NCBI RefSeq assembly: GCF_011745365.1
Contig: NW_024468910.1
Coordinates: 1,020,068-1,084,067, forward strand
Origin: Cryphonectria parasitica EP155
Taxonomy: Eukaryota > Ascomycota > Sordariomycetes > Diaporthales > Cryphonectriaceae
Length of the DNA: 64,000 nt
Direction: 5' to 3'
In this document: one piece after another, positions 26,063 to 62,445 of the stretch
How positions within the stretch are numbered: position 1 is the first letter of the stretch
How the letters are laid out: the number at the start of each line of letters is the position of its first letter
The notes under the pieces: model-generated
The model's database searches: none
Told to the model about the DNA's origin: nothing
Seen by the model: only the letters and a program-made list of their open reading frames with translations
Translations under genes and position numbers: made by a program

Positions 26063-26674
26063 ATATCGAACAGAATCAACAAATCCCGCTCTCGTGCCGA
26101 GAAGACTAAACAAAAGGATTCTCTTCTTTCCTTGGTTCTTCAAAACGCCATTACCATGCCTTCTTGTTCCTTCTGCGAGGGTCGTAGTATTCAGTCTTGT
26201 CAAGTCTCCGTTGAGAATTCCTCTTGCTGCGCTGAATGTGTTCGCCTGGGTCGCTCTCGGTGCGATGTTCAAGGGTTGAGCGCAGCGGAAATTCGTCGGA
26301 TAGGCGTTCAGCACCAACGCCTGGAGAACTAACTCGAGAGTGCTGAGGAGCGGCTGCGCGATGCTGCTGCGGAGGTAGGATGTTTGCGGAAGCAGAAGCG
26401 TTTATGGTTTGAGAGGATGATGAAAGCTATTCGTCGAGGCTTTTCCAGTGTGGAGGAGTTGGAACGTGAGGAGGCTGAGGAGGAGCGAGCTCGCATTGCT
26501 GCTGGGGTTCGTTCTATGGTTGCAGAGGAATCTGCTGTGGTTGCTGGAGATCCTTCTTTTGAGAGTTTTGACTGGAATTCCGTGGACGTGGGGAATGCAG
26601 TGGTGGATTAGTCTGGGTTTTTGGATGAGATGGTGAGCTCTGGGCTCCTCTCCGGGCCGGAGCGGTTGTCTTAG
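26063..26674 (+). pseudogene. Antisense accessory gene: Zn2Cys6-like cluster + coiled coil (family A copy)
   Basis: Homologue of the intact gene at 53,071-53,673, same length class (204 codons) and position. It retains the cluster (MPSCSFCEGRSIQSC, then CAECVRLGRSRCDV), with C-x2-C-x7-C spacing twice, and a charged helical region (RKQKRLWFERMMKAIRRGFS, VEELEREEAEEERARI). Decay: the upstream start is ATA, TAA interrupts after QRLEN, and TAG follows NAVVD. The internal ATG at 26,155 (MPSCSFC) survives and is conserved in all copies. The protein would probably bind Zn and dimerise. No function is known to me. Confidence 0.75.
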
Positions 26675-35576: not shown

Positions 35577-35895
35577 TGAACCAGAACTAGGGCGCCGTCG
35601 CCCTCGAAAGAAAGAGGGACAAACAGCTGCCGAAGCAATGGGCAAGGGCTCATGCAACCCAAGCGTGCCTGTACAGATGAGGACAGCAAACTAAGGCCAC
35701 ACGGGCGCAAGAACAGGGTGAAAAACCTGTCTTAGACCTGTCCAAAGGGTTCAAAATTGAAAAGAAGAGAAAGGATGCTTGATTGTTGCTTATAGCTAAA
35801 GAATTTGAAAAGTGGGTGGTATCCTTTATATGTATGAGGACCCTTGACCCACTGTACTCCACGTCCCACGGACTACCACCCTGGCCACCACAACA
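35577..35895 (-). repeat. 3' LTR, family C (319 bp)
   Basis: Plus-strand TGAACCAGAACTAGGG...CCACCACAACA. It pairs with 47,564-47,882. ATAG precedes it. Confidence 0.97.
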
Positions 35896-35896
35896 G

Positions 35897-35910: not shown

Positions 35911-36145
35911 CTTTCTTCCAAAGTTGCGACAAGTCCAATGGTGTGCCAGGTCTGATCAGAGGGAGATGAAGTAAAGAAATAAAGAATTCATCGCAAACTG
36001 CCAAAGGAAACACTGCAAACCGAACCATCCCCCCAATTCAACCCTCATGCCTCTCCCTATCGCTTGAGCCATCATTCAAATCAACGCAGGAGTATCAGTA
36101 TCCATCTTCAGTCCATTCGTAACACGGGCACGACCTGGACAGATC

Positions 36146-37810
36146 CTAACGCTGACCTCTTCTCTGTCCCCGTCTGCTCTCAAACTCTGCTCGAGCAGCA
36201 GCAGCAGCAGCAGTTCTCTCCTGATTCTGCATTCTCACTCGACGGATCCTTTCGCAGTCCGCTTCATACATATCCATCTTGATAGCATGATCGAACCCTG
36301 TCCAGTTCGGAGAACCCACTGAGGGCCTGATAGGGTTAAGGCTATGAAGCTCATTCCATAGAGGCACACGAGGCTCCTGAGGTCTATCAGGAAAACTGGG
36401 AGGCATGATGTTGCTGCTTCTCAGTCTCTGATGCAATGGGGCTTCAGTAGCACGTCCAGGCCTAGCTGTTTGCTGCATTGACAGGTTGATTGTCGGTCCT
36501 GGACCGACAGGCGTTCCTCGAGGTGAAGAGGAGTAAGGATCGGTAGGAGTTCCGGATGGGAGTCGACTTAACTCTGAGCTGATACTACGTCCTCTTGATG
36601 AACGCAAGATCGGGCCAGCTGGAGCTGTGCTCTCTCGGGACTGTTGTCTTGACGGAACTAGGCTGGGTGCCCTACTCGCTCTGAAATCCTCCAGGGCAAA
36701 GGCTGATATGTCCCTCCTCATCCTGTCGAGATCGCCTTCAATAGACAGTTCAGGCAAGTCTGCAACTCCTCCCACGAAGAAGGTAACATTCGGCTTGTAG
36801 GTTATGTTCAGTACCCTACCGGCTTCCACTTGTACAGCCTTGTATTCTTGAAGTGAGGCACTCCTTCTTAATGGCCGATCAGGATATCGCGTATAGTTGC
36901 TGTGTCCCAGCTCATAGGAGAAGGCCTGGCAGTGCAGGCTTGTCATAGCCATCTCCGCACCCCATTCTTCCACATTTTGTGCAGTTTCTCTATGGTTAAG
37001 ATAGAGAGCTTGCCTCCAGTCTGGACAGCCACTAGGTGATTGGTAGAAATCAGTAGATTCCAGGATTCGAAGGCGAAACAGTTCGATTGCATAGAGCAGA
37101 GCTGCATTCGAATCGTTATCCAGCGGCGTAGTTGGAACATTCTCGAAATCCCAATCCCGATTGGCTCCAGCACTCCTGAGCTGACTGTTCAGATAGTGCT
37201 TGCTTGCATGAGCCAGTAGGGTATCGCCGGATTTGTGCACAGCGATGTAAAATCCTTTTTCAGTCTTCATATCGAGCCAAGACAGAGCACAAGCTGAAGT
37301 CGCTGTATTGACTGAGAGGAGAACCCATAGGCGCCTCTGTCTAGCCTCATGTCTGGGCAGATCCTGTTTATTGAGAATATCAGGAGAGCCAGGTGGATGG
37401 GCTATCGATGGAACACGAAGGCATCCCATCAAGAATACGTCTTGTTGATTGTACTGAGCGTAATGACGAAAGGCAGCCACAGCGTGCTGCGGACCAATAT
37501 CTTGAGGGACTCCTGCATCTAAGAATCCGACCAGATCATAGATATCGAGAAGGTGTCTGGAAGGATTGGCGCCGAAGATCGTGGGCAAGTACGACTTGCG
37601 AGGGGGTAACCCTGGGAAGTACTTCTCGACGAGTCCTGCTGCCAGATGATTTTCTTCGTCCCTTAGACTGAAGTAGGGCGGACGACTCTTGATCACTTCA
37701 GTTGGGTACGGCGCTCTGGGAAAGACAGTCCGAAAGCAGTAGGCCTTGGTCATCCAGTCCCCTCGGCTATGCTGGACAGGTGGGAACAGAGAGTACTTGA
37801 ATTCGGCCAT
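36146..37810 (-). CDS. Passenger gene 1: 554-aa protein of unknown function, in pol orientation
   Basis: Intronless 555-codon frame with a good start context (CAGCAGCAATGGCC) after a CT-rich leader. Residues 1-330 look globular (for example KSYLPTIFGANPSRHLLDIY; RRLWVLLSVNTATSACALSW). Residues 370-480 are Ser/Pro/Arg-rich and disordered, and the end is Ala/Arg-rich (AAAAAARAEFESRRGQRRGQ). The order W-L-L-S-V-N, LD, then PLDNDSNAALLYAIELF faintly resembles a Ulp1/C48 SUMO-protease fold, but the catalytic His and Cys positions are not conserved. I offer that only as a hypothesis. It lies between the passenger gene on the opposite strand (divergent, start codons 617 bp apart) and the 3' LTR. The absence of introns fits repeated passage through spliced element RNA. 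Confidence 0.8.
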   Translation of the reverse strand: MAEFKYSLFPPVQHSRGDWMTKAYCFRTVFPRAPYPTEVIKSRPPYFSLRDEENHLAAGLVEKYFPGLPPRKSYLPTIFGANPSRHLLDIYDLVGFLDAGVPQDIGPQHAVAAFRHYAQYNQQDVFLMGCLRVPSIAHPPGSPDILNKQDLPRHEARQRRLWVLLSVNTATSACALSWLDMKTEKGFYIAVHKSGDTLLAHASKHYLNSQLRSAGANRDWDFENVPTTPLDNDSNAALLYAIELFRLRILESTDFYQSPSGCPDWRQALYLNHRETAQNVEEWGAEMAMTSLHCQAFSYELGHSNYTRYPDRPLRRSASLQEYKAVQVEAGRVLNITYKPNVTFFVGGVADLPELSIEGDLDRMRRDISAFALEDFRASRAPSLVPSRQQSRESTAPAGPILRSSRGRSISSELSRLPSGTPTDPYSSSPRGTPVGPGPTINLSMQQTARPGRATEAPLHQRLRSSNIMPPSFPDRPQEPRVPLWNELHSLNPIRPSVGSPNWTGFDHAIKMDMYEADCERIRRVRMQNQERTAAAAAARAEFESRRGQRRGQR

Positions 37811-38427
37811 TGCTGCTGAGTCGAAAGGAAAGTGAAAAGGGAAGAACGGCTTTGTCGGAAGGTGGGCAATTGCGAGAGGGGTTTGCGAAGGTGTAAAGTC
37901 AAGGGACCGAGAGGGTGTTGACTGAGGAAGAAAGGTAGAGAAGAATGCAGCTTCAGCCTGAGGATCTGTCGAGGAAGGTGATGTTATGTAAGCAGAGCAG
38001 TTGACAATTTGCTCTGATGTCGGTGTACAGGTCTGGGGCAGCGTTGACGAGGAAGAAAAAGGGTGTGTGTATGCTCGAGAAAGGTGGTTGTGAAGAGGTT
38101 GAAGGAGGAAGAAGAATAGCTGGCTGCGAGTGTGGATGGAATGGCCAATTTATCTTGTCTGGCAACTACCCAAGTGATTCACTGCTTTCCGTTTGTCACA
38201 AGGCAAACAGCTTCACCCTTGGCCAGGTAGGAGCTGTCCAGCAACAGACTGGATAGAAGGTGTGGTGACTCAGTTGGGTGTGTTTGTTACCCATTGCCAT
38301 CTCATCAATCTTCAGCAAACTGTTCAACAATCTCTCCCTCAGTTCACCTTGCCTTTCAATTCATCCTTCGCACAACAACTTCTCCTTCTGTCAACCTTCC
38401 CTTGCCCAGCTCTGCAACACACTCAAG
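37811..38427. promoter_or_regulatory. Divergent promoter region between the two passenger genes
   Basis: 617 bp between opposite start codons. Each flank has a fungal-type pyrimidine-rich leader (CTTCCCTTTTCACTTTCC toward 37,810; CTCCCTCAGTTCACC and CTTCTCCTTCTGTC toward 38,428). This suggests that the genes have their own bidirectional promoter rather than relying on the LTR. I see no clear TATA box. Confidence 0.5.
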
Positions 38428-39662
38428 ATGTCTCGAATCGTCACCGACGCTGTTTTCTCTTCGCGGGTAAACACCGCTCCTCAAGAGGTTGACAAGGTCT
38501 GGATCTGGTTTTCTTCTTCGGTTCCTCCTCCTCAGGGCAGCAACTACCACTGGCTCAAGGATGTCCATGTCGACTTCCTTGACGTTACAGACTTCAACAC
38601 CATCAAGGGAGACCTTGGCTTGACATACGCTTCTTGGGATATCCAAGGCGATATCATGTTTTGGAACAACTCACTGCCAAGCCCTGGCTTTGCTGCTCAT
38701 TTCGCAAGGCTGGACAATAAGGATTCTATCAAACTGAATCCTATTGTGGTGTGTAAAGCCGGTTGGAAGCCCTTTGGCGAGTACCTTACCCGCATCTTCT
38801 CCCGCCCTGAGCGAGTAAATTCCCTCCTCGTTCAGTCCTATGGTCGGCGTAACCTAGTCCCTTGCGATTGCTGCTCCCGTCGGTACGCCACTGCTTGCAT
38901 GCCTGTACAGGGGCAGCAGGTCAACGTCAACTGGCCTTTCCTAGAATGCATCTCAATGGAGGGCTTCTTCAATGGGAAGTGCGGCAACTGCATTTATCAT
39001 GCAGAGTCTGGGTGTGACTACACCAAAGACTTCCCTTGTGTCAAAGAGCGCAGTGCACGAGTAAGATTCCCATTCCGATGTCTTTGACCAGGTTTGAGCA
39101 CACACTAATCATTGTCCTTCTCGCAGCGTCGGCACTCGTTTTACCAACTCGGCCCTCGACGTGTAATCGAGATAGATTCTCAAGTCAACTCCAATGCCGA
39201 CGTCGAGCGTATTGTCAAAGCTCAATACAAGCTCATGCGGGATAAAGGTATTGCGCATAACCAGATCAAATGGGTTCCTCTTGTGCCAAGGAAGTGGTAC
39301 CCACAGGATACTGTGAGTCTCATAATCAACTATGATTGCGATGCTCAAGAAGACCATTGCTAACTTTATCTGCACAGATCGGCAAGAAGAGTACTGCTCC
39401 TTCTGCTCCCAAGAAGGGAGTATCTGGGTCTGGGCAGGCAGCTCCACGACCTGTATCTCGTGGCAAGGATAAAGGCAAGGGCAAGGCTGTAGTAGGATCT
39501 CGTGTCGAGAAACGAGCCAAGTCCGTTCAATCTCAAGGTTCTTCCTCTGTTTTTGACGACGATTCTTCAGCGGATGATACGGATGACATGGATCTGGACA
39601 GGACGAGGAGAGAGCCATCGGATGACATTTACGGGTATTCCGGTGATGAGGATGATGTGTAA
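38428..39662 (+). CDS. Passenger gene 2: spliced antisense gene, 367-aa protein with paired C-x2-C-x7-C motifs
   Basis: Exons 38,428-39,060, 39,127-39,312 and 39,378-39,662. Intron 1 (66 bp) is GTAAGA...CACTAATC...CGCAG, and intron 2 (65 bp) is GTGAGT...GCTAAC...GCACAG. Exon lengths 633, 186 and 285 are all multiples of three. The start context is CTCAAGATGTC. Residues 1-145 are globular (VWIWFSSSVPPPQGSNYHWL). C146-x2-C149-x7-C157 and C185-x2-C188-x7-C196 (KCGNCIYHAESGCDY) form a probable zinc-binding module reminiscent of Zn2Cys6 or the fungal DUF3716 cysteine pattern. Residues 275-367 are Lys/Ser- then Asp-rich and disordered (SGDEDDV end). It is convergent with pol (stop at 39,949). The orientation explains why introns survive retrotransposition. 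Function unknown, perhaps chromatin or nucleic-acid binding. Confidence 0.85.
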
Positions 39663-39859
39663 AAGTAAGGGGTTTCCATAGGTTGCAGTGTTTCTTCGGC
39701 GCTCTGCATTTTTCATGCGTTGCATTCCAATATACTGCAATTTTTGAACAACGAAAATGGCCTCAGAGCTGGTCAACATGCTCTGTGCCGGGTGCTTTGA
39801 AATTTTTAGGTGGGTTTACAGTGTTCTGTGGCGAGTGGTAGCAGACGACACTTCGTCCC

Positions 39860-39873
39860 TCCTCCCCCAGCAA
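39860..39873 (-). promoter_or_regulatory. Second polypurine-tract copy just downstream of pol
   Basis: Exact copy of the 14-bp TTGCTGGGGGAGGA (minus strand) that abuts the 3' LTR at 35,897. Its position right after the pol stop is where the 3' polypurine tract would lie if the passenger module were absent. Confidence 0.6.
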
Positions 39874-39948
39874 AACACACGAGATGGAATAGGAAAGACG
39901 AAAAGAAAACGTGTTTTGCGAACAAAAAGAAATATGGACAGAAAGAAA

Positions 39949-42900
39949 TCAACCTCCCCCACGAGCTAGGAACGCTGATTTAGTTGGGATTGGTATAAAC
40001 ATCCCACTTCTATCTGCTTTCTCCTGTTCTCGCCTCTCCTTCTCTGCTGCCCGTGTGAAATGTTCACCGTCACCAACTCCATTTCCATCCTCAGCATCAT
40101 CATCCGCTTCAGTTGCTAGATTGACAGTCTCTGGATCAGGACTGGTCTGGCCAGGCGTGGGGTCGTGCTCGATGATGTCTGGAACCCAGAATGTGGCGTC
40201 GTCGCTTGAATCTGCTTCCTGAACTTCGAGGATATTGTTGTCTGGTTCCCCCCGCCAGGGAGCTCTCATCGAATCCAGCTTTTCTGCCAATGGTTGGCCA
40301 GGTTGAAGCTCGACATCTTCTTCCCAGGGCATAGGCACCTCGGGTTCCCAAATGCCATCCATATTCCGCATGAACTTTTTGAGATTGGTAGCTGAATATG
40401 TGCCTTTTAGCAGAACTCCGTCTGTGGTCTTGAGCTCATAAGCATGTTTGTCTAGGACCTGAGCAATCAGGTATGGACCCTTCCACTTATAAGAGATCTT
40501 GGCATTGCGCGAGTGGCTCATTTTCCGGACGTGGTCATAGACAAGCACGAGATCTCCGACACTCAGTCGAGATTTTCGTACCAGACCCTGCGTTTGACTT
40601 TTGGCTGCGATCTTTTGACGGTATGCCTGAACAGCTTCAATTGCCTTCTGCACATCATCTTCCTTGGCTGCGATCATCCTCAACCGCATTTCAAACGCTT
40701 CCTGAGGGGATTGGTCTTCGGTCCATGTAAGAACTCTCCACGTCGGGATTTCAGTTTCAATTGGGATAAGCGGCTCCCAACCGAAAATCAAATAGAAGGG
40801 GCTGTATCCATGCGACTGGCGGATCGTAGTCCTTTCAGCGAAGAGTGCGAGTCTCAAGTACTGCCTCCATCTCCAGGGTTGAGCATCAGCTAGCTTAGCA
40901 AGGGCACTTGCTAAGGAAAGATGACCAGCTTCTACTTGTCCTTGGGCATGGGGATTGTAACTGGAGACCTGGACAAGCAGGATCCCAAGAGCTCTGATGG
41001 TCTTGGCCATCTCAGCCTTGTTTTCTGGTCCTCCGTCAACAGTAATTTTGAGAGGGCACCCGAACACAAGAATGATCTCTTCCAAAATGAACTTCCTCAT
41101 TTCCGCAGCTGTAGCTTTCTTGAGGGGTCTTGCAAGCACATAGCCGGTCAGGTCACAGCGAGCCTCCGCAAGGTATCTGTAACCGCCATCCTCGGCCATG
41201 TGTTGAATGTCGATGCTGATCCTCGTGAAGGGTTGACTTGGAAGGGTCGGGATCACTCCTTCCTTCCACATCTTTGGATCGAACTTTGCACACTTCTCGC
41301 AACCCGAGACAGCATTGGCCACATCTGTCCAGAGACCTCTCCAGTAGTAGAGTTGCTTGACACGAGCTACCGTAGAGTCTCGACCTCGATGTCCAAACTT
41401 GGCATGACATTCTCTGATGATTCGGCGACGAAGATCAGGATCATCTACTACCCGTCGGCGTGGGAGTTTCGCACCAGCGCGGCGCCACAGAGCCTGGTCA
41501 AGTACTTGATGCTTTAATGCCTCTACCATGAAGTTCTTGCGATCCCTCTTGGAGAGTTTTGGTGGAATGATCCCGTGGCATAAGAACTCTGCATACCGTT
41601 TCGACTGTTCCGTCCACTGAAGAGTTGGATTTAGCAGTGGTACTAGGTCAGCTCCATCTGAGTTCACGCTGTTAAGCTGAGCATCACACCAGTCCTCAAC
41701 ATTGCCATCTTCGTCTTCCTTAGGTGGCGTTGAGTATGGAGGTCGAGAAAGGGCATCAGCCACAGGATTCTTTGACCCGGGAATGTGTTTGACAGTGAAG
41801 TCAAACATCTTGATCACTGCCACCCATCTGTTCAGGAGAGCACCGGGTATGTCGTTCATTCCTCCATTGAGTTGGTCCACCAGAACGCGAGCATCGGTTT
41901 CCAGAATGAAATGGCAACCATAGAGATGCCGCCGAAGAGACCGTAGGGCACAGAGGACAGCGCGACACTCCCTCTTGGTAGCATCGTACTTCTGTGCTGC
42001 AACTGTCCAGGTTCCGCTAACGAAACGTGCTGGCTTTCGTTTATCCTCTACCACCTGCATCAGTGCGGCGCCCCAGCCCAACAGGCTTGCATCCACCATA
42101 AGAACGATCTCCCCAGCATCAGTGCTGTAATCAATTGAAATGATGACTGGACGAGACGTGAGCGTCCGGACAAGTGTGGCAACAGCTTCTTTCTGTTCCT
42201 TCTCCCACCTCCACGCAGCACCTTTCTTGAGAAGATCGTAGAGTGGTCGGGCAATGATTGCGAAGTTCCAAATCCAAGCTGCATAATAGACGACCAGTCC
42301 GATGAAAGAGCGGACGTCCTTGATGTCCTTGCATTCTGTCCAGGCCAGAAGCTTTTCCACCTTCCTGTCCTGAGGTTGTCGTCCGCTGGAACCGACGACA
42401 TAACCAACCATATCGACTTTCACTCGGCACCATTCTGACTTGAATGCTGAGATTGTGGCTCCAGCCAGCTCTGCATTTACAAGAACCTTGTCGAGGTTTC
42501 CGATGTGCTCAGCAATGTACCTACGCACTCCGGGAAGGCTCGGAACCTCTTCATCCCCATAGGTTGTTGTGGGACCACGAACAGGAATGTCGTCGAGGAA
42601 AGGCTGGCATATATGAGGAATAAGATCATACAGAAGTCTGACCATTATCCTCATAAACTGAGCAACAGAGTTGGTAGCACCCTGGGGTAGAGTACACATC
42701 CTGAACAGGCCTAAGGGCGTTGAGAAGGTCGTCATATCCCTGCTGTTAGGATGCAGTCGCACTTGGTCGTACCCGGAAAAGAAGTCGAGCAGTGAAAGAA
42801 CCTTGCACATGGCGAACTCCTCCGAGAATTCATCTGAGGCAGGCGGCATGAAGGCATCTTTGAGGCTGTGCTTGTTGTACTTTTGAGCGTCATTGATCAG

Positions 42901-43740
42901 GCGTAAGCCACCATCCTTTTTGACAACAAGAAACCAGTTGTTTCTGTATGATGCATGGCTTTCCTCAATGATCTCCCGCCTGATACGTTGTTTCAGGAGC
43001 TCCATCAGCTTTGGCCTGAGAGCATTGGGGATTGGAATGTGCCTCGCTTGAAAGACCTCGTGGGGTACGGTTCTGATTTCTTGCAAGGGAGCCACTTCCT
43101 CAATGATCTTTCCAATCTCAGTAAAGTCCCACGCAAGGGCTTTGATCCTGTTTCTCAACATGTGTTTGAACATTTCCTTCTCAGCCTCAGAAAACCCTTC
43201 ACAGTTTTTCTCTTGCATGGCAGCCCACCGGTCAGGTCTCAGGCGCTGATCAGGATCCAGATCGCTGAACTTGGGTTCAATCCACTCATCATACTTGGTA
43301 GGCTTTGTGGATCGCTGAGCTCGTCTCATCTCCTCAACCTTGGCAGGCTTCCACCCGATCGTCCCTTCCGGTACTGAACCATCAGGCTGGGAATCATTAA
43401 TTGGCTTGACCTTCTTGTCTTTGGGCTTGTAAAGAGTGTTGACCAGGCCTAAGACATCTTTTCTTTCCTTCCCCACACAACGTGGCTGGCGTGAATGGCG
43501 CTGGCTGCTGTGCATTCCACACAGGCAAGACCCTCGGGTCGCTCCTTCCTCATTCACCATGGAGCAACCCTCCTTCAACTTCCTCCCCATCAGTTCCACC
43601 GTTAACTCGTTCACAACAGCCGCAATGTCTCGTTCAGGTATGGACATCACAGCTGTATCTCCCTCCTCCAACAACACCCACTCTGGGACGACTTCTCCGC
43701 TGACAGCCCTGCGTCCCTCAGGGTGGCTGCCAGCACTCAG
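39949..43740 (-). CDS. pol: Pol polyprotein (RT-RNase H-integrase), family C, expressed by -1 frameshift
   Basis: About 1,260 codons, open without interruption, entered from the gag frame at 43,740-43,746. No ATG near the start is needed. Counting from the Met-like LLEEGDTAV residue: RT about 140-420, with VVKKDGGLRLI, LPQGATNS and the catalytic FLDD near 360; RNase H about 510-640, with VDAS, TKRECRAVL and ETDARVLV; the integrase zinc module is H...H...CEKC near 756-796; the core is Asp near 822, Asp near 880 (TVDGGPE) and Glu about 34 residues later (GQVEAGH). A GPY/F-type module (KWKGPYLI) follows. The C-terminus is an acidic ~150-residue tail with no chromodomain. It should be enzymatically competent by motif content. 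Confidence 0.95.
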   Translation of the reverse strand: MSAGSHPEGRRAVSGEVVPEWVLLEEGDTAVMSIPERDIAAVVNELTVELMGRKLKEGCSMVNEEGATRGSCLCGMHSSQRHSRQPRCVGKERKDVLGLVNTLYKPKDKKVKPINDSQPDGSVPEGTIGWKPAKVEEMRRAQRSTKPTKYDEWIEPKFSDLDPDQRLRPDRWAAMQEKNCEGFSEAEKEMFKHMLRNRIKALAWDFTEIGKIIEEVAPLQEIRTVPHEVFQARHIPIPNALRPKLMELLKQRIRREIIEESHASYRNNWFLVVKKDGGLRLINDAQKYNKHSLKDAFMPPASDEFSEEFAMCKVLSLLDFFSGYDQVRLHPNSRDMTTFSTPLGLFRMCTLPQGATNSVAQFMRIMVRLLYDLIPHICQPFLDDIPVRGPTTTYGDEEVPSLPGVRRYIAEHIGNLDKVLVNAELAGATISAFKSEWCRVKVDMVGYVVGSSGRQPQDRKVEKLLAWTECKDIKDVRSFIGLVVYYAAWIWNFAIIARPLYDLLKKGAAWRWEKEQKEAVATLVRTLTSRPVIISIDYSTDAGEIVLMVDASLLGWGAALMQVVEDKRKPARFVSGTWTVAAQKYDATKRECRAVLCALRSLRRHLYGCHFILETDARVLVDQLNGGMNDIPGALLNRWVAVIKMFDFTVKHIPGSKNPVADALSRPPYSTPPKEDEDGNVEDWCDAQLNSVNSDGADLVPLLNPTLQWTEQSKRYAEFLCHGIIPPKLSKRDRKNFMVEALKHQVLDQALWRRAGAKLPRRRVVDDPDLRRRIIRECHAKFGHRGRDSTVARVKQLYYWRGLWTDVANAVSGCEKCAKFDPKMWKEGVIPTLPSQPFTRISIDIQHMAEDGGYRYLAEARCDLTGYVLARPLKKATAAEMRKFILEEIILVFGCPLKITVDGGPENKAEMAKTIRALGILLVQVSSYNPHAQGQVEAGHLSLASALAKLADAQPWRWRQYLRLALFAERTTIRQSHGYSPFYLIFGWEPLIPIETEIPTWRVLTWTEDQSPQEAFEMRLRMIAAKEDDVQKAIEAVQAYRQKIAAKSQTQGLVRKSRLSVGDLVLVYDHVRKMSHSRNAKISYKWKGPYLIAQVLDKHAYELKTTDGVLLKGTYSATNLKKFMRNMDGIWEPEVPMPWEEDVELQPGQPLAEKLDSMRAPWRGEPDNNILEVQEADSSDDATFWVPDIIEHDPTPGQTSPDPETVNLATEADDDAEDGNGVGDGEHFTRAAEKERREQEKADRSGMFIPIPTKSAFLARGGG

Positions 43741-43746
43741 TTTTTT
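43699..43746 (-). promoter_or_regulatory. -1 ribosomal frameshift signal between Gag-PR and Pol
   Basis: On the minus strand the gag frame ends CCA AAA AAC TGA. A AAA AAC (43,740-43,746) is a canonical X XXY YYZ slippery heptamer in the correct phase. After a 5-nt spacer (TGAGT) comes a 10-bp stem, GCTGGCAGCC (43,725-43,734) with GGCTGTCAGC (43,699-43,708), nine Watson-Crick pairs and one G-U. A one-base backward slip enters exactly the pol frame (KKLSAGSHPEG...). Confidence 0.88.
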
Positions 43747-46577
43747 GGTGTGGTTCTGTGTGAACCCTCCCCTTCAAGGAGTTTCTGACCGCCGATTGTG
43801 GTGACCAGTTGTACTCCTCCAAAGGCGAAGCTCGCACGGAGAAATCCGGGGATGGAGTGATCAAAGGAAAGCTTGGTCTGCATCACAAACGGCATTCCTA
43901 ACAGCACAGGATGATTTGGCGACATCAATCTGTCGTCGACGACATAGAATATCACCTGTTCAGAGAAGCCGCCACAGAAAACATCGGTTTCAAGAACTCC
44001 AACAAGCGCCATATCTGATCCATCGTACGTGCGTGAGATAACATTCGATGTTGGCACATAAGACAAGCGCATGCTCGAACACAGAGAGAGAGCTACCAAG
44101 CTCATTTCGGCACCTGTATCCAGCATTGCTCGTACAGGTTCATTCTCTTTACCTCCCAGCTGCAGAGGGATGTATGCCACCGGAGCGATGCTCCTATCTC
44201 GGATGCTGCTGAGAGCAGTCATGGAAGCCGTCACAGGAGGAAATGAGGATTTGTTGAAGGCTCGAATCATGTTAACAGTAGGCTTGACATAGCTAGGTTC
44301 AGCAACAAGAGACAAAGCTTGAACTGCGGGTGGTTGAGCCAGTCTCGAAAGGTACTCAGTAATGTCCCGAGTGTTGATAATCTGACCATCAATAAGCCCT
44401 TCAGGCTGGGAAAGCGTCGAGATTCCGGGTTTATGCTGCGATGAATTGGCTGATCCAGCAGTATCTACCTTGTGCAGGTCCGAGCCGGTTTGATTGTCGA
44501 GATCAACAACTTTTCGGGCTCCAGAGCTGACTCCTTGAAGACTGTGAATCAGACGGGCTCCCCATCCTGGTAACATGACTGTCATCTCCCGGCCTGAGAC
44601 CTTCAACGGGTGGTCTAGGAACTGATTCAGGAGCTTGTCACTAATGGCCTGAACTGTTGGCTCTCTGTCCAGACTGTTGGATTGCTTGTTGGATTCCTCT
44701 GGTCCAATATTCCCGAAATGTGTAGGGACCTCAACAGTCCTCACACTTGCATCTCCTCCAACCTCACCATCATCATACCCAGCCTCCCCAACACGGCGCT
44801 TCTTTGCTTCACCCGCGTTTACCTGGGCTTGGACAGGCCCAACACCCACAGCATTGATGCTGGGAAGCTTTGGTAGGTACAGTTCGGCTTGGGCTGGAGT
44901 GAGATATGACTTCCCCACTTGAATCTCACCAGCATTGCTGAGGATCTCAATGTTGTTGGTCCTGTACTGATTGTTGCGTCTGGGAACGGGGTCGGTCTCT
45001 TCCCACAGTGTCTTATTCTTGGCCATCTCAGGGTCTCCACGCCATTTCTCGTCCTCTTGGACCAGGCTGACATATCGAGAGATCCAAGGATCCTCAACAC
45101 CCTTCAGCCGCTGATCCTCACAGAGACCGAGGATCAGACGGATCATACCGCCTTTGGGGTTATCTCGAGCGGACATGACCTGGCCATATGACACTGGTTT
45201 TGACCTAGAGTCCAGAAACTCCGAGCGATTGCCAAGATGCCACTCTGGCTTCGCTAATGCTGGAGCATAGCAAATGCCACAGTCCATAACAGTACGGAGT
45301 TCCACGCACTCATGAGCTCCATGGGACTTCGACCCACAGCCGTAGCACCTGCGCAGAGTTCCGTCCTTCTTCAGGATTTCATTGATCTCCGCTCGCCATG
45401 CTTCAGAGTACTGCTCCCCCTCGTCCTCCGGACTTGTGTAGGTAACACCCATCTGCAAGGAATTTGCATTCCCCTGGGGAGGATTCCTCGCAGAAACAGT
45501 TTGGGGACGCCTGATCAGTTGTGAGATCTCCTGTAGAGCCTTGGTTTGGTCATACGAGACATCCCGCGTCTGTCTGAGAGCATCAGTCTGCAGCTTTAAG
45601 GATTTTGCCATTGCAATTTGGTCAATGCGGAGTTGCTCCATCATTGAAGCCAACTGGTTGTATCCTTGGTCGCTCTTCTGAGCAGGTTCAGCCTTCAAGA
45701 TCTGCTTAGTCGGTTCAGGCTGAGCTTGCCAATCACGAGTTGACTGTTGAGGCGGTTGATAGTACGATGGCCCTACTGCTTGTCCCGACGGGTTCATCGG
45801 TTGACTGGGAGCACTATGCATCGGATGTGGAACAGGAACGGGCCGTGTCTGGTCAAGGACCGGCTGAGGTGGAGGCATAGGAGGACCTTGGAATTGAGCC
45901 TGTTGATGAAGTTGAAGGTTGGTAGCACCGGAGGCAAGTTGGTCTTGAGTCTCCTCCTGGAGTGCTTCACGATGAACCTCCAACAGCTTTTCCATAAGGT
46001 AAGGCCACTTCTTGTCGCTGACGCTTTCGGCAGTAACACCATGGTCAGCTCGGAGGCGCTTGATCCAGGTCGAAGGGAGCTTCATCCATGCTTCTGCCAC
46101 AGGTTGACTGTCTCTGATCTTAAGACGAGTGAGAGCGTTGTCATAGTCCACAATGAACGACCAGAGGCTAGCGGCATCGGTAATGAAACGGTTGTTGATG
46201 ATGTTCAGGCGCTCCTGCTCGGGGGTGTACGCCTGGAGATGGTCCCAAGGGCGATAAGCAACCAACAGTCGCTCCTTCTGTTCATCCCAAGTTTTGGCGC
46301 TTGTAGTGAATCTCTCCACTTCTCCGGCAACGATTGTGTCTGTACAGAAGCCTTTCATGAAGTTGAGTGCTTGAGTGTCATCAATCCCTTTGATCTGACG
46401 CCACCAGTCGAATCGCTTCAGCCACGAGGAGACTTCCACACGGGCAAACAACGTCAACCCACCACCAGCAAGCTCACTGTGGGAGGGGAACCTGAAGTTC
46501 TGACCATAGTGGTTGTTGGCCAGGTGGTCGGCCGAACTGGGTGTCTGATTGGAAGAGCCCTCAGACGTGGAGGCCAT
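43737..46577 (-). CDS. gag: Gag-protease polyprotein, family C
   Basis: Chosen start MASTSEGSSNQTPSS at 46,577 (context AAGATGGCC). The frame is open without stops to 47,555, near the LTR, with other ATGs at 46,886 and about 47,388, so the true start is uncertain. The capsid-like region is residues 1-230 (EVSSWLKRFDWWRQIKGIDD; RPWDHLQAYTPEQERLNII). A Pro/Gln-rich linker and a canonical zinc knuckle CYGCGSKSHGAHEC (CX2CX4HX4C) follow. The C-terminal aspartic protease has active site LDTGAEMSLV and the HPVLLGMPF strand. The frame ends in TGA inside the frameshift signal at 43,737. It packages element RNA and matures the polyproteins. Confidence 0.92.
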   Translation of the reverse strand: MASTSEGSSNQTPSSADHLANNHYGQNFRFPSHSELAGGGLTLFARVEVSSWLKRFDWWRQIKGIDDTQALNFMKGFCTDTIVAGEVERFTTSAKTWDEQKERLLVAYRPWDHLQAYTPEQERLNIINNRFITDAASLWSFIVDYDNALTRLKIRDSQPVAEAWMKLPSTWIKRLRADHGVTAESVSDKKWPYLMEKLLEVHREALQEETQDQLASGATNLQLHQQAQFQGPPMPPPQPVLDQTRPVPVPHPMHSAPSQPMNPSGQAVGPSYYQPPQQSTRDWQAQPEPTKQILKAEPAQKSDQGYNQLASMMEQLRIDQIAMAKSLKLQTDALRQTRDVSYDQTKALQEISQLIRRPQTVSARNPPQGNANSLQMGVTYTSPEDEGEQYSEAWRAEINEILKKDGTLRRCYGCGSKSHGAHECVELRTVMDCGICYAPALAKPEWHLGNRSEFLDSRSKPVSYGQVMSARDNPKGGMIRLILGLCEDQRLKGVEDPWISRYVSLVQEDEKWRGDPEMAKNKTLWEETDPVPRRNNQYRTNNIEILSNAGEIQVGKSYLTPAQAELYLPKLPSINAVGVGPVQAQVNAGEAKKRRVGEAGYDDGEVGGDASVRTVEVPTHFGNIGPEESNKQSNSLDREPTVQAISDKLLNQFLDHPLKVSGREMTVMLPGWGARLIHSLQGVSSGARKVVDLDNQTGSDLHKVDTAGSANSSQHKPGISTLSQPEGLIDGQIINTRDITEYLSRLAQPPAVQALSLVAEPSYVKPTVNMIRAFNKSSFPPVTASMTALSSIRDRSIAPVAYIPLQLGGKENEPVRAMLDTGAEMSLVALSLCSSMRLSYVPTSNVISRTYDGSDMALVGVLETDVFCGGFSEQVIFYVVDDRLMSPNHPVLLGMPFVMQTKLSFDHSIPGFLRASFAFGGVQLVTTIGGQKLLEGEGSHRTTPKN

Positions 46578-47550
46578 CTTCCCTCTTGGTTGTCGCTTCC
46601 TCCGATGTTTCTTTGCCTTCCTGGTTCGAGGTCCTTGAGTTGAGGGCGCCACAGCCGGAATGCCTTCCGTATCCTGCGGAAGACAATACTGTGGAGGTCG
46701 AGGGGGTTCAGGTGCTTGAGGGAGGTTCAGTCTGTGAGTGGAGCGTGCATGAGGTCTGTCTTGTGATGAACAACAAGGGATTGAGTTGGCTGTTCTGTGC
46801 TGCACTGGGATTTCCTTTATCAATAGTCCTGCCAACCAATGGAGGCATTTCTGACCAGGTGTAAGGCGTCGATTAAAGTTCGACATCGGATGATGTCGTC
46901 GTAATCCTCGACCTCTATTCCTCGTGTGCACTGACGGTTCCTCATCTTCACCTCCCTGTGTCCTTCGCTTTTGGGATAATGCAACCAGCAAGCTTTTGAT
47001 CCAAAGGATCAATGTGGCCAGACGTGTCCAGGTAGAGCGTGCTGATCGGACCATCGCAAGGAGCACAGACCTTGTTAACCATGCCACTTTTCTCTGCAGA
47101 GTACCATCCACCAAAAGCATCCCACTCTGTAATTTAACCATGGACCCACATCCGACATGGTTAAACTTTCCGCTGCAGCCTGTACAGGTCTGAGCCGTAT
47201 CAGCTTCTGTATAGGATCGTTGATTGATGTGGGAAATGTTGGAAAAAGGAATTCGTTTCTTCGTAATATTGGCCCGCGGGCTCAACGCATCGTTCACCGG
47301 CCCACGACCAGAACTCACACCACTCCTCCTCTGTCCACCCATCTCCCCTCTACGAGAGGTCTCAGGCATGACCCAGAGTCCAGACATGATGCACAGCCTG
47401 TCGTGTAAGCGTGATAGATAAAGGAAATAAAAGAGCTCAGCAGGGAAAAAGAGTGCGCCCGTCCATAGGGTAAACTTGCTGCTCTTACTGATCCTCACGA
47501 ACTGTAACGCAAACAGCCCTGAGCTACCAGCCTGAACAGCTAAGTCCACA

Positions 47551-47562
47551 CTCACCGCACCA
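47551..47562 (-). promoter_or_regulatory. Primer-binding site, family C
   Basis: One base from the 5' LTR, the minus strand reads TGGTGCGGTGAG. It begins with TGG, complementary to a tRNA CCA end (a tRNA ending CTCACCGCACCA would pair over 12 nt). I cannot name the tRNA. Confidence 0.6.
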
Positions 47563-47563
47563 T

Positions 47564-47882
47564 TGAACCAGAACTAGGGCGCCGTCGCCCTCGAAAGAAA
47601 GAGGGACAAACAGCTGCCGAAGCAATGGGCAAGGGCTCATGCAACCCAAGCGTGCCTGTACAGATGAGGACAGCAAACTAAGGCCACACGGGCGCAAGAA
47701 CAGGGTGAAAAACCTGTCTTAGACCTGTCCAAAGGGTTCAAAATTGAAAAGAAGAGAAAGGATGCTTGATTGTTGCTTATAGCTAAAGAATTTGAAAAGT
47801 GGGTGGTATCCTTTATATGTATGAGGACCCTTGACCCACTGTACTCCACGTCCCACGGACTACCACCCTGGCCACCACAACA
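47564..47882 (-). repeat. 5' LTR with promoter, family C (319 bp)
   Basis: Identical to 35,577-35,895. The minus-strand TATAAAG at 47,811-47,817 is the likely TATA box. ATAG follows as the target duplication. Confidence 0.97.
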
Positions 47883-52529: not shown

Positions 52530-52977
52530 TGTAATGAGCACTGCAGTTATCCGAAGATTCCTTAAGTACTGATTGAGTTTATGCTAACAAGAGCGATATC
52601 AAAGTGTAAGTCCTTGAATACGGAAACGTACAAGTCCTGGTGAAAGTGCAAGTGTTCACTGCCTTTGGAGCTATCCAAGTGTGTAACAAATGAATACTTA
52701 GATTAACGACTGAAGAGCTATGTACTGAATCTATCTAATGGTAATGAACGTGTTCTTATATATCCAGCTCTTCAGTTCTGACTATCCTGACTATGTTCCG
52801 ATTCCTCATAGTCGTTTCCTAAATATGTTGACTATATCCATAGTTGACATAGTCGCGCTAGTAACCCTAACCCGGGTTACGTAATCCTTATTGGCTGTCT
52901 TGATGTTGAGTCATGACACCTGGTCCTTCTGTTAGTTGGGCGTGTTTCAGGACCTGCATGTTGGATGGGTCATAACA
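52530..52977 (-). repeat. 3' LTR, family B (448 bp)
   Basis: TGTAATGAGC...GGGTCATAACA on the plus strand. It pairs with 59,513-59,960 and contains CCCTAACCCGGG near 52,864. Confidence 0.96.
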
Positions 52978-52990
52978 TCATCTCCCTCCT
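52978..52990 (-). promoter_or_regulatory. Polypurine tract, family B element
   Basis: Minus-strand AGGAGGGAGATGA against the 3' LTR, identical to the family A copy at 25,971. Confidence 0.7.
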
Positions 52991-53070
52991 ATGGATCGTT
53001 GTCCTCAACGATCTTTCGTAAGTTTTCTCGGCTGTTCTCCCTGTCGTGTGTCGTGCCTTCCTAATCCATC

Positions 53071-53673
53071 ATGTCGAGCAGAGTTAACAAATCTCGCGTT
53101 CGCAAACCCTCCTCTGTCCCAAAAAGTACCCAAGATCGAAATCTCTTGGTTTCCCGCCTCTTGGAGAATTTTGTCGAGATGCCCGTCTGTTCCTATTGCG
53201 AGGGGCGCGGTTTCGGATCCTGCAAGGTGTCTCCCGGAGACTCTTCTCGTTGCATCGAATGTGTTCGTCTGGGTCGCTCCAAGTGCGACGTCATGGGTCC
53301 TTCCCCTGAGGAGCTTCGCAATATCGCCACCCAACATCGAAAGTTGGAGGACGAGATTGAGAAGAGGGAGACCGAGCTTCTCCGTCTGCGTCAACAGAAG
53401 CGGATGTGGTCCGAGAAGATGAAACGTGCCCTGCGTCGTGGTATTACTCGCGTGGAAGAATTGGATCGTGTGGAGGCTGAAGAGCGCGAGGCCGAGCGTC
53501 GTGCCGCGGAGGAGGAGCAGCGTGTTGCTGAGACATCGGTTCCCGAGGGTCCTCTTCCTGAGGGACTTCCTCCCTGGGTGCCCGACTTCGATTTCTTGTC
53601 TGGCTTTCTGGCTGAGGGCGGCGCGGTTCCTGGCCCTTCCGAGGATCGTTCCGGGGCGGAGCGCTCTTCCTAG
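53071..53673 (+). CDS. Intact antisense accessory gene: 200-aa Zn2Cys6-like cluster + coiled-coil protein
   Basis: Opposite to gag-pol, between the 3' LTR and pol, ending 7 bp from the pol stop (convergent). Residues 1-36 are basic. The cluster is C40-x2-C43-x7-C51-x9-C61-x2-C64-x7-C72 (PVCSYCEGRGFGSC, RCIECVRLGRSKCDV), close to the Gal4-type C-x2-C-x6-C-x5-12-C-x2-C-x6-8-C but one residue longer in loop 1. Residues 80-150 are a charged coiled coil (EELRNIATQHRKLEDEIEKR). The tail is acidic and hydrophobic (PPWVPDFDFLSGFLAEGG), like an activation domain. The start is either ATG 53,071 or, if the GTAAGT at 53,020 and the CTAAT/CAG near 53,060-53,078 form a leader intron, ATG 53,179 (MPVCSYC), which all copies keep. 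A DNA-binding or regulatory role is inference. Confidence 0.85.
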   Translation: MSSRVNKSRVRKPSSVPKSTQDRNLLVSRLLENFVEMPVCSYCEGRGFGSCKVSPGDSSRCIECVRLGRSKCDVMGPSPEELRNIATQHRKLEDEIEKRETELLRLRQQKRMWSEKMKRALRRGITRVEELDRVEAEEREAERRAAEEEQRVAETSVPEGPLPEGLPPWVPDFDFLSGFLAEGGAVPGPSEDRSGAERSS

Positions 53674-53680
53674 GTGGTTG

Positions 53681-56600
53681 TTATCGTCGTGCCGCTAAGA
53701 TGACTGCCAATGGTGTGGTGTTTGGATGGAGGCTAGTCTTTTTCTTCCAATATTCTATCAATTTTTCCATGGCGTTTCCGATGTTTTCCTGTGATTCCCA
53801 TGAATTTTCGCTTGTTGAGTAGCCTTTCCACTTGATAAGGTATTCCAGTGTGTTGTTTCTTCCTCTGTGCTTAATGATGCGTTCTACTTCGTACTCTGGT
53901 TCGTTGTTTTCTACTTCGATGGTATCGTCTGTTGGGATTTCTTGTGCTGCTGGTTCCAACAGTGAGATGTGGAAGACCGAGTGTATTCTCATTCCGTAGG
54001 GTAGTGCGAGTTCGTAGTTGATTGGGGAAACTTGTTGTAGAATTTTGAATGGTCCCAGTTTCTTGTGGTCAAGCTTGTCGCTGGGTCTCTTTGTTTTGAT
54101 GTTTCGTCGTAGTAGGTAGACCTTATCTCCCTTCTGTAGGATTGGTCCCTCAATCCTTTTGGAGTTTGCATATCTCGTCATCCGTTCTCTGACAAATGCA
54201 AGTTCTTCTCTGAGATTTTCCTGGAGTTTCTGGATTTTCTTGACTCTTTTGTCTGCTGCTTCTGCATTTGCTCCTGGGATCTCTTCATGGTAGGCTGTGG
54301 GATTGTAGCCATAAAGCGCGTAGAATGGTGATGTCTTTGTGGTAGATGTGTCTGCGCTGTTGTATGCGAATTGTGCCAGTGGTAACAGGTCAACCCAGTT
54401 ATCCTGTTCTTCGTTTACATAGTGCTGTAGATATTGTTCGATGATCTGGTTGATTCGTTCTGTTTGTCCGTCCGTCTGCGGGTGAAACGCTGTTGACATC
54501 TTATGTTCGGCTCCGAGTCGTTTCATGAGTGAGGTCCAGAAGTTTGATGCGAACTTTCTGTCTCTGTCGGAGATGACTTCTTGGGGCATGCTGTGGCCGG
54601 ATATGATTGTTCTAAGGAATGTATATGCGAGTTCTTCTGCTGTGCTGCTTTCCTTGTAGGGGAGAAAATAAGCATACTTGCTCAGTCTGCAAACCACTAC
54701 TAAGATGCTATCGTACTGCACTTTAGTTAAGAGTTCTCGTGAGAGGGATAGCTTGGTGATGAAGTCTAGACTGATTGATTGCTAAACAGTTGTAGGTACT
54801 GGTAAGGGTTGTAGCAGTCCGTAAGGCTTGTGTCTCTCTGCCTTGTTTTTCTTGCAGCTGTCGCATTGTCGTAGGATATTTTCAATCCTTTTCCTGAGGC
54901 CTGGTGGGTTCCAGTGTCTCTTGATTCGCTCGTAGGTTGCTCTGACTCCTTGGTGTCCGTGTGCTGGGGCACCATGTATATCCTTGATGTATTCTTCTTG
55001 TTCTGCTGGGGTCATCTGCTCGGGGTTTCTGACTTGGGGTCCTATTCTGAGGGTTGCCGCAAGTTCCTTGTGTGCGTTGATGAGGTCTCCTTCCTCATTG
55101 AGTGCAAAGATGTTTTGGATTTCTTCCTCAATCTTATCCTGGTGGTCTGCTCTTCTGCTGAGAGCGTCTGCCCTGGCGTTTTCCTTGCTTTGGATGTGGA
55201 TGACCTTGAAGTCGAACTGAGATAGGTATTCTGCTCATCTTACCTGTTGTCTGTTGAGGTTCTTCGTCGTTGTGAATGTGGTAAGGTTCTTATGGTCCGA
55301 AAATACCTTGATCGTGTGTTTGGCACCTATAAGGTGGTGTTTCCATTCCTTGAATGCTTCCACTATGGCTATGAGTTCCTTGTCTGGTATTCCGTATCGT
55401 AATTCTGGTCCATTAAGCTTTTTGGAGAAGTTGGCGACTATCTGTAGTCGTCCTTGTTCGTTGCGCTGGTTGAGTTCTGCACCGAGTGCATAGTCTGAGG
55501 CGTCTGTATACAGTTCGTATTCCTTTCGAGGATCTGATTCTCGTAGAACTGGGTCCTTGGTAACTAGCTCCTTAATGGTCTCGAAGGCCTGGTCTTCTTC
55601 CTGATTCCATTGAAAGGGTAGGTTCTTTTTTGTGAGGTTTGTGAGAGATCTGGCAATTTCGCTGTATTTGCTGATAAACTGCCGATAGAAGTTGGCGTAT
55701 CCGAGGAATGCTCTGACGTCCTTGACGTTTTTTGGTGTAGGCCAATCCCTGATTGCCTGTATCTTATCTTTCTGCATCCTGATGCATTCTGGTTCAATGA
55801 TATATCCGAGATAGTCGATCTTTTGGATATGGAAGTAACTTTTTGTTGGTTCCACTAGGAGGTGTGCATCTTGGAGCGTCTGGAGTATCTGTCGTACGTG
55901 CCGCTTGTATTCCTCGAGGGTTCTGGAGTAGATGAGGATGTCGTCTAGGTAGACGATGCATGTAACATCCAGGAATTTGCGGAGGACATGGTTGATTATT
56001 TCCTGGAAGGACGCCGGTGCGTTGATCAATCCAAAGAGCATAATCAGATACTCGTAGTATCCGTAGCGAGTCCTAAATGCTGTTTTCCACTCTTCTCCTT
56101 CCTTGATGCGGATGTGTGCGTATGCCTCTTTGAGATCTAGTGCTGTGAACCATTGTACGCCTTGTAATCGGTTCTTGATTTCCTTGAATAATGGTAGTGA
56201 GTACCGATTCTTTTTGGTGATGTCGTTGAGCTGTTTGTAGTCCACACAAAGCCGGAGTTTTCCGTTCTTCTTTGGTACGAACAGGATCGGGTATCCTGCT
56301 AGTGATCGTGACAGCCTGATGTATCCTTTCTTCAGGTTCTCGTCGAGGTACTCCCTGAGTGCCTCTAGTCTTGCTTCATCAAGCCCGTAGATAGGGAAGA
56401 ACTGTGGCTGAGTTCCTTCCTTCAGTGATATCTCGTGGTCGTATGGGCCGTGTTCTGGAAGTCCTGTGTCCAGTTTTCCTTGGAACAGCTTCGTAAATTC
56501 GTGATACTCTCGTGGTATTCCAGCGAATGTTGGTATTGGTCCATCCTTCTCCGTTTCTGCTATCTGAAGAAATAGGAGGTACCGTTGAGCGTCTTTGTCT

Positions 56601-57422
56601 GGAGACAGTCTCTTTCCCTTGCCTGTTGGTTGTCTTTTCGGGGGTTCTGGGACCCTTAGATTCTCGTTCCGAGCCGGACCGAAGTTTCTGGGATGCCATG
56701 GCTGTGGGATTTCTTTGTGGTTCGCAAGACCACACTTCTGTTGTCGCTCCGAGCCGGACCGATTTCCTGAGGGTCTGCATATGCTCGTTGTTGTGTTAAC
56801 CTGCTGATGCCCTGGCACTGTTGATTTGGGTTCATCTTTGCTAGATTCTTCTCCATGAGCCATCAGCCCTGCTGATTTGGAGGTATTCGTGGGTTCGTTT
56901 GAGGCCTCGTTTCTTGAGTGCGCTTCAGTGACTGAATCCGATCCTTCGCCTTTGATTGCAACCTTCTTATGGGTAACAGCGTTGTCCCATAAGATCTGGC
57001 CAGTAGTCCAATCGATTCGAGGATTGTGCTCCCTGAGCCATAGTATTCCTAGTATCAGTTCGTGTTGTGCTGTTTCTGTGATGTCCAACGTAATAGAGGT
57101 CGTTTTGCCGCAGATCGTAACTGGTAGATGATCAGTCTCCATGTTGATAATACCTTGGCTGTAGTCGACGTTCGTTCCGTCCACAGTTCTGAGTACGTAG
57201 ATCTCCATCTTCTTATGCCATGGGATCTTGTCCCTGTTGATGATTCGTGGGGATATGAAATTTCCCTGAGCGCCACTGTCCAACAGTGCGCTGTATCTTT
57301 TCCCGTTGACCTCTGCTTCGAGTATCAAGTGTGTTGTATCGGCTCCCTGAGTCGCACAGAGGGACCGTGTCTCTGGTCCTGATCGTCTGTTGTCCCTTAC
57401 AGGCGATCTTGCTCTTTTGGAG
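53681..57422 (-). pseudogene. pol: pol (PR-RT-RNase H-integrase-chromodomain), family B, two nonsense mutations
   Basis: A single frame from about 57.4 kb to 53,681. The protease is ALLDSGAQGNFISPRI (near 57,270). RT has LAGYPILFVPKKNGKLRLCV and IVYLDDILIYS (YLDD). RNase H has LYTDASDYALGAEL and GIPDKELIAIVEAF. The integrase zinc module has HGHQGVRATYERIKRHW and CDSCKKNK, and the core has VVVCRLSKYAYFLPY, then ISDRDRKF and TDGQTERIN with D-x35-E. The C-terminal chromodomain reads EVENNEPEYEVERIIKHRG and EYLIKWKGYSTSENSW. TGA replaces a Trp after NLNRQQVR (55,235) and TAG replaces a Trp after PVPTTV (54,782). The pol frame is -1 relative to the upstream open frame that ends at 57,397. I found no canonical slippery heptamer there. 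Confidence 0.93.
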
Positions 57423-59512: not shown

Positions 59513-59960
59513 TGTAATGAGCACTGCAGTTATCCGAAGATTCCTTAAGTACTGATTGGGTTTATGCTAACAAGAGCGATATCAAAGTGTAAGTCCTTGA
59601 ATACGGAAACGTACAAGTCCTGGTGAGAGTGCAAGTGTTCACTGCCTTTAGGGCTATCCAAGTGTGTAACAAATGAATACTTAGATTGACAACTGAAGAG
59701 CTATGTACTGAATCTATCTAATGGTAATGAACGTGTCCTTATATATCCAGCTCTTCAGTTCTGACTATCCTAACTATATTCCGATTCCTCATAGTCGTTT
59801 CCTAAATATGTTGACTATGTCCATAGTTGACATAGTCGCGCTAGTAACCCTAACCCGGGTTACGTAATCCTTATTGGCTGTCTTGATGTTGAGTCATGAC
59901 ACCTGGTCCTTCTGTTGGTTGGGCGTGTTTCAGAACCTGCATGTTGGATGGGTCATAACA
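59513..59960 (-). repeat. 5' LTR with promoter, family B (448 bp)
   Basis: Pairs with 52,530-52,977. The minus-strand TATATAAG at 59,738-59,745 is the probable TATA box. It sits in the loop of a perfect 12-bp inverted repeat, AACTGAAGAGCT (59,691-59,702) and AGCTCTTCAGTT (59,749-59,760). Confidence 0.96.
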
Positions 59961-62079: not shown

Positions 62080-62445
62080 TGAAAATATTGATCACAAATG
62101 CTTCAAAAGACGCTAGTAATGCAGATAACGCTAATAACACAGATAACGCCATCAGATGATTACGAAAAATGCTTCAAAAGACGCTAGTGATGCAGATAAC
62201 GCTAATGATACAGATAACGCCATCAGATAATTACGAAAAATGCCTCAAAAGACGCTAGTGATGCAGATGACGCTAATAACACAGATAACGCCATCAGATG
62301 ATTACGAAAAATGCTTCAAAAGACGCTAGTGATGCAGATAACGCCAATGACACAGATAACGCCATCAGATAATTACGAAAAATTCAGCAAAAGACGCTAG
62401 TGATGCAGATAACGCCAATAACACAGATATTACAAATTCAAACAG
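62080..62445. repeat. 71-bp tandem repeat array (about 5 copies)
   Basis: GACGCTAGTGATGCAGATAA recurs at 62,109, 62,180, 62,251, 62,322 and 62,393, each step exactly 71 bp. It is followed by ACACAGATAACGCCATCAGA and ATTACGAAAAATGCTTCAAA. Because 71 is not a multiple of three, the array does not keep a frame. Units differ by a few transitions. Confidence 0.95.

Follow-up and report, generated by a model that had tools for sequence, protein, structure and literature searches.

A candidate Gal4-like antisense gene in a Ty3/gypsy family of Cryphonectria parasitica and a DUF3716 gene at the same position in an unrelated family

The gene brtn lies antisense between pol and the 3' long terminal repeat (LTR) of Boty-like Ty3/gypsy elements of Botrytis (available portion of PMC7264820), and the plant elements Retand, Grande and RIRE2 carry antisense open reading frames (ORFs; TRP28, gene23) for which a regulatory role has been proposed, the TRP28 protein of Retand being predicted to bind DNA (available portion of PMC11963269). 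Antisense genes at this position are therefore already known, and the accessible parts of the same two papers treat their function in plant and fungal LTR retrotransposons as an open question. In human T-cell leukemia virus type 1 (HTLV-1) the antisense gene HBZ is expressed from a promoter in the 3' LTR in spliced and unspliced forms, and its product, with a basic leucine zipper (bZIP) and an activation domain, lowers expression from the 5' LTR (PMC10186651, in the part available). Here we analyze a 64,000-nucleotide stretch of the Cryphonectria parasitica EP155 genome, called the window below (forward-strand positions 1,020,068 to 1,084,067 of contig NW_024468910.1, assembly GCF_011745365.1), in which Ty3/gypsy elements of two families, B and C, each have, between pol and the 3' LTR, a gene on the antisense strand (Table 1). 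What is new is a Gal4-like reading of the family B gene and the independent occurrence of a DUF3716 protein in family C: in the literature searched, which lay mostly outside the subscription journals, no report interprets such a fungal antisense gene as Zn2Cys6-like or connects retroelements with DUF3716, DUF3716 itself is not mentioned, and the available parts of PMC4182546 and PMC3658920 contain nothing on the B gene.

The B and C genes share with brtn their antisense orientation, their place between pol and the 3' LTR and their residence in a fungal Ty3/gypsy element; for B the likeness considered here is one of position and strand. The brtn gene of Boty-like elements is reportedly the subject of Zhao et al. 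2011. The plant ORFs also have the same place and strand, but TRP28 (PF04195) is a different domain, which Pfam reports for neither B nor C at E 1. HBZ is a functional comparison only; it is a bZIP protein, whereas B has a cysteine cluster, and we claim no sequence relation between them.

The family B ORF is flanked on one side by the end of the pol ORF (53681, minus strand) and on the other by the 3' LTR; the two LTRs of the element are 97.3% identical. Searches with its protein gave 14 and 19 matches including the window's own (the 19-match search scored only 7998 candidates sharing most words), with the names Colletotrichum, Pyricularia, Diaporthe, Mollisiaceae and Cryphonectria and none named Botrytis; a tblastn search found no B match in viral contigs. 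The Mollisiaceae match, P0026, is weak (E 6.5e-3) and its module incomplete; that family is placed in the same class as Botrytis, which hints from a single sequence match that the B type may extend to that class. Six cysteines are invariant across 13 chosen proteins (alignment A5, which left out P0001, P0011 and P0013, without the module, and P0014, in which one Cys is Tyr). Outside A5, P0013, P0014, P0022, P0025 and P0026 are fragments or damaged gene models lacking the module or at least one Cys (in alignment A6, the module is absent from P0025 and incomplete in P0022 and P0026), and the Diaporthe relative is without the module. The ratio of nonsynonymous to synonymous divergence (dN/dS) is 0.17-0.66 over the 15 pairs of six stop-free genomic B copies, with dS above 1, hence poorly measured, in most pairs (six of nine stop-free copies were used, L085, L087 and one further copy being omitted; in L089 the first ATG is missing). 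In 15 of 15 pairs changes are most frequent at the third codon position. Every one of the six copies has stops in the other two same-strand frames and in two sense-strand frames; the remaining sense-strand frame is open in two copies (window and L088). Because the neighboring pol ORF ends before the B gene, the conservation is not borrowed from pol. Stops are present in 141 of 150 scored B copies, as is expected from repeat-induced point mutation (RIP). By these codon-level comparisons B is a real gene under purifying selection.

The geometry of the gene relative to reverse transcriptase (RT) was counted over the genome used for all copy searches (43.8 Mb, 17 contigs), with 150 scored of 418 RT candidates and 150 scored of 286 B candidates. 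A B-type match lies no more than 6 kb downstream of 68 of the 150 RT matches, is antisense in 62 of these 68, and is 2070-2532 bases away in 58 of the 68; only 10 RT matches have one as near upstream, on either strand. Counted from the other side, 58 of 150 B matches have one of these RT matches 1.5-3 kb off in the antisense geometry and 92 do not. Divergence of the antisense protein and of the RT is correlated over seven copies (31 of 5040 permutations in a Mantel comparison in which some of the RT sequence is RIP-damaged). On these counts the B-type antisense gene is a co-inherited accessory gene of a fungal Ty3/gypsy clade. The initial annotation had assigned two unrelated Ty3/gypsy families an antisense gene in the interval from pol to the 3' LTR, and family A a relic of the B gene; the coordinates bear out both points (Table 1), the arrangement recurs genome-wide, and for B, with this recurrence and with relatives elsewhere, such ORFs are neither rare nor unconserved.

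The predicted layout of the B protein looks like that of a small Gal4/Hap1-type regulator: a six-Cys cluster (C-x2-C-x6/7-C-x9-C-x2-C-x7-C), a coiled coil and an acidic tail. In its AlphaFold2 (AF2) model a helix follows each CxxC, helices span residues 79-122 and 128-155 (a coiled coil after the cluster, as in Zn2Cys6 factors, in a monomer prediction), and the tail is disordered; the predicted local distance difference test (pLDDT) score is 82-98 by blocks to residue 150 and 58 in block 151-160. Tails are net acidic in 20 of 21 B-family proteins (tails of at least 20 residues, shorter ones dropped; P0002 and L089 are the same gene, and the P0019 tail has a single W/F/Y/L). Foldseek ranks the Leu3 DNA-binding domain first and GAL4 third, and Hap1 stands at VIA rows 2 and 4 (none of these significant), while Zn2Cys6 proteins, identified by sequence, are 24 of 177,635 distinct PDB sequences; VIA rows 7v2w and 8tzk were taken as common helix matches. 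In the succession of cluster, linker and predicted coiled coil B is arranged like Gal4, Leu3 and Hap1 (PF00172), to which the fold ranking points without significance, but it differs from them in being small, in being borne by a mobile element, in scoring below the Pfam cut-off and in the spacing of its first half-site. Zn2Cys6 spacing is C-x2-C-x6-C-x5-12-C-x2-C-x6-8-C; the window copy has x7, not x6, in the first half-site, and the 21 complete six-Cys modules of the family (L086 and P0016 being one gene from two sources) have x6 in 8 and x7 in 13.

From these features we propose, with a probability of about 0.5, that the B-type gene is an element-borne, minimal Gal4/Hap1-type regulator that acts in trans on the DNA of its own family. 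It would probably be transcribed antisense from the 3' LTR side; its predicted six-Cys module would probably hold two zinc ions and bind DNA, its predicted coiled coil would mediate dimerization, and its acidic-aromatic tail could recruit the transcription machinery. The most likely target would be the LTR or the antisense-promoter DNA of its own family, where it may activate or repress. The LTRs offer a candidate site, CGG repeats being what Zn2Cys6 factors usually bind: the family A LTRs contain TACGGAACCGTA, a CGG-N2-CCG inverted repeat, at 10361-10372, 25608-25619 and 32612-32623, and the family B LTRs of the window contain TACGGAAACGTA, the first half of the repeat only. Near the element 3' end the repeat is exact in 12 of 31 copies that have a B-type gene, one RIP-type base off in 7 and more RIP-type bases off in 4; of the remaining copies the window's is one non-RIP base off, 4 are a subfamily without the second half and 3 have no such LTR block (grouping beyond the 12 exact copies was by eye).

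Several results limit this proposal. The Foldseek ranking carries no significant E-value, and B does not reach the cut-off of Pfam Zn_clus (PF00172), which is not among 25 of the 26 families listed for 14 A1 members at E 1; its score for the relative L084 is 10.4 against 21 bits, and L086, L088 and L090 have none. When PDB sequences were searched with the A1 profile, six matches emerged (best E 0.08), no Zn2Cys6 protein among them. The recurrence of CGG-N2-CCG is a lead for binding only, because the LTR copies share ancestry. B also matches ATG17-like, CENP-H and other Pfam families weakly, each time below the cut-off, which was put down to coiled-coil noise.

The family C element (35577-47882) is larger than the family B element and its 319-bp LTRs are identical to each other; the RTs of the two families are only distantly similar (27% over 120 residues). 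Its antisense gene is situated between pol (39949-43677, minus strand) and the 3' LTR. A C-type match lies no more than 9 kb downstream of 51 of 71 family C RT matches (71 of 91 rows, 20 weak ones that belong to other families being left out), on the opposite strand in 50, and at a distance of 3304-3321 bases in 43 of those 50. The C protein scores 25.0 and 25.7 bits against the gathering score of 22 of Pfam DUF3716 (PF12511), and hhalign against eight DUF3716 domains of the same genome gives 96.6% (E 4.8e-10); its identity to the eight other aligned domains is 19-34%. It differs from the family by an insert of ~15 residues and an extra Cys. By its domain, then, the C protein stands apart from B as an independent instance of DUF3716 at the same position. 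No C homologue was found by sequence at E 0.01 in the protein database, and its pattern had no match in viral contigs. Six 3660-base stretches round the C antisense gene (L051-L056, on C2, C4, C6, C9 (two) and C10) are base-for-base identical, with the RT also intact in 5 of the 6, and 14 other copies, drawn from 71 other C matches, differ almost solely by C-to-T/G-to-A changes (3 transversion columns in total). Family C is, from this pattern of differences, a young burst alongside heavily RIP-damaged kin; such a set, six copies without differences and 14 with hardly any beyond RIP-type change, leaves selection on C unmeasurable.

Do the two proteins share a metal domain? The initial annotation had attributed to them two C-x2-C-x7-C half-sites with linkers of 9 and 27 residues and one common metal motif, and had suggested a common accessory function. 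The half-sites are literally present in B (residues 40 and 61) and in C (147 and 186 of 220), but a further Cys, that of FLEC, lies within the 27-residue linker in C and is identified by the alignment as the true third cysteine of DUF3716; the third Cys of the original pattern sits inside the insert that precedes FLEC. Two half-sites occur in 3 of 311 window ORFs (stop-to-stop, at least 60 residues), namely B, C and the family A relic, and residue shuffles of B yield two in 0 of 200,000 cases and those of C in 12 of 200,000; by these counts the double half-site is not due to chance in either protein. Neither is it common by descent as judged by profile comparison: hhalign gives 0.7% for B against C and 1.3, 2.9 and 1.8% for B against DUF3716, no profile match makes B a member of PF12511, and the first half-site is x6 in a part of the B modules. 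These comparisons identify C as DUF3716 and refute a common origin with B, subject to B alignments shallow enough (number of effective sequences 1.6-2.6) to leave room for a very remote link; DUF3716 against Zn_clus gives 5.3%. That B and C nevertheless share one ancient DUF3716-like metal domain and an accessory function is very unlikely in our estimate: the six cysteines come in the same order at the same place and strand, and the weak hhalign of B to DUF3716 covers the module (39 columns), but the probabilities are 0.7-2.9%, the score is reached by 9 of 60 permuted controls, DUF3716 is not among 25 of the 26 families listed for the 14 A1 members, and the third Cys of C is another residue. 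Of the common function, a nucleic-acid-binding accessory role stays plausible, with B under purifying selection, and the shared metal motif behind it is unsupported. Structure prediction gave a usable model of the B protein only, since that of C from its single sequence has a pLDDT of 31.8 and was rejected.

The B protein might act not on promoters but on RNA or in the particle (as a nucleocapsid-like protein, an RNA exporter or a silencing suppressor). RNA binding is known for cysteine-rich modules, some retroviral accessory proteins are RNA exporters, and residues 1-36 of B have 8 basic and 3 acidic residues; against this, Pfam at E 1 finds no zinc knuckle in B, the fold ranking favors DNA-binding domains, if weakly, and the tail is acidic, so we regard this alternative as rather improbable. 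Regulatory antisense RNAs have been discussed for LTR elements and retroviruses (PMC7264820 and PMC10186651, in their available parts), and the antisense transcript might itself be functional as a source of double-stranded or small interfering RNA with the protein incidental, but the purifying selection on the B frame and the conservation of the protein across genera make this highly improbable. For C, the idea that the element captured a DUF3716 gene from its host and carries it as a passenger is a stronger contender, though still on the unlikely side: DUF3716 is also present in probable host genes of this genome (20 matches in total, C copies counted) and no selection can be measured, but the gene stands opposite-strand downstream of 50 of 71 family C RT matches, and its low identity to the eight other domains implies that any capture is old. 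The regulator proposed for B can tentatively be extended, with the odds somewhat against it, to a picture in which one clade of Ty3/gypsy elements in fungi has an antisense Gal4-type factor of its own, an HBZ-like self-regulator on LTR CGG repeats that arose independently of retroviruses, and an unrelated family recruited DUF3716 to the same place. Two unrelated domains at one position would indicate selection for an antisense regulator, not chance capture, and antisense accessory regulators would, if this is true, be a recurrent solution among LTR elements. The recognizable DNA-binding, dimerizing and activating layout of B makes binding and driving of its own LTR directly testable.

Table 1. 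Coordinates of the features discussed, counted from the first nucleotide of the window
Feature	Position	Strand	Remark
Family B antisense gene, 200 aa	53071..53673	+	start 53071; some relatives' gene models begin at internal Met 37
Six-cysteine module, Zn2Cys6-like	53179..53298	+	residues 37-76, C-x2-C-x7-C-x9-C-x2-C-x7-C
Predicted long helices / coiled coil	53305..53535	+	residues 79-155, AF2 model
Acidic-aromatic tail	53542..53670	+	low model confidence; composition resembling activation domain
Family B 3' LTR, 448 bp	52530..52977	-
Family B 5' LTR	59513..59960	-
Family B pol, without single open frame	53681..57328	-	integrase end with chromodomain
Family B protease-RT-RNaseH ORF	55235-57328	-
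Family B integrase-chromodomain ORF	53681-54721	-
Family B gag, 447 aa	58108..59451	-
Relic of B-type antisense gene in family A	26063..26452	+	47% identity over residues 1-128
TACGGAAACGTA, candidate binding site	52619..52630 (3' LTR), 59602-59613 (5' LTR)		first half of CGG-N2-CCG repeat
Polypurine tract (sense strand)	52978..52992	-	directly adjoining 3' LTR; by eye
Inverted repeat	52993..53014		between polypurine tract and antisense gene
GTAAGT, 5' splice-site-like	53018..53023	+
CTAAT	53061-53065	+
Family C 3' LTR, 319 bp	35577..35895	-
Family C 5' LTR	47564..47882	-
Family C antisense gene, 220 aa from first ATG	38425..39084	+	within ORF 38278-39087
DUF3716 domain of C protein	38824..39009	+
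Family C RT-RNaseH-integrase ORF	39949-43677	-
Family C ORF ending in aspartyl protease	43737-47555	-

Upstream of the B gene, GTAAGT and CTAAT stand in the same place, 40-43 bases apart, in 12 of 13 aligned copies (the upstream sequence of L086 differs), and the antisense unit looks like one with a candidate 5' leader intron, for which the window copy is without a clear acceptor. L088 has an apparent N-terminal exon and intron (CTAAC, then TTAGCAG; by eye) ahead of the module's internal Met. The inverted repeat is changed in sequence yet self-complementary in L084 (by eye) and in L022 (RIP-type changes); the polypurine-tract pattern is present in 16 of 35 copies, 10 of which have an inverted repeat of at least 6 pairs, and RNA folding of the region gives weak z values of -1.9 and -1.4. 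Because it adjoins the polypurine tract, the repeat may serve plus-strand priming rather than the antisense gene, and from its sequence it could be a plus-strand-priming stem-loop or a dimer binding site.

In family C, a 554-residue sense ORF without a Pfam match (window 36146-37810) separates the antisense gene from the 3' LTR. Two loci, L091 and L092 (C3:8589-8888 and C6:3942645-3942935), are damaged distant relatives (28-30%) of the C protein that retain PC-x-C, IPFFEC and the insert, with the insert's extra Cys also in L091; judged from these remnants they may represent a second family that has this domain. A DUF3716 ORF is present in two further loci on different contigs, L006 and L008, that are 94% alike over 2.2 kb and by this likeness would be either a duplicated gene or another mobile element. 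Elsewhere in the window, positions 62085-62439 are a tandem repeat of 71-base units.
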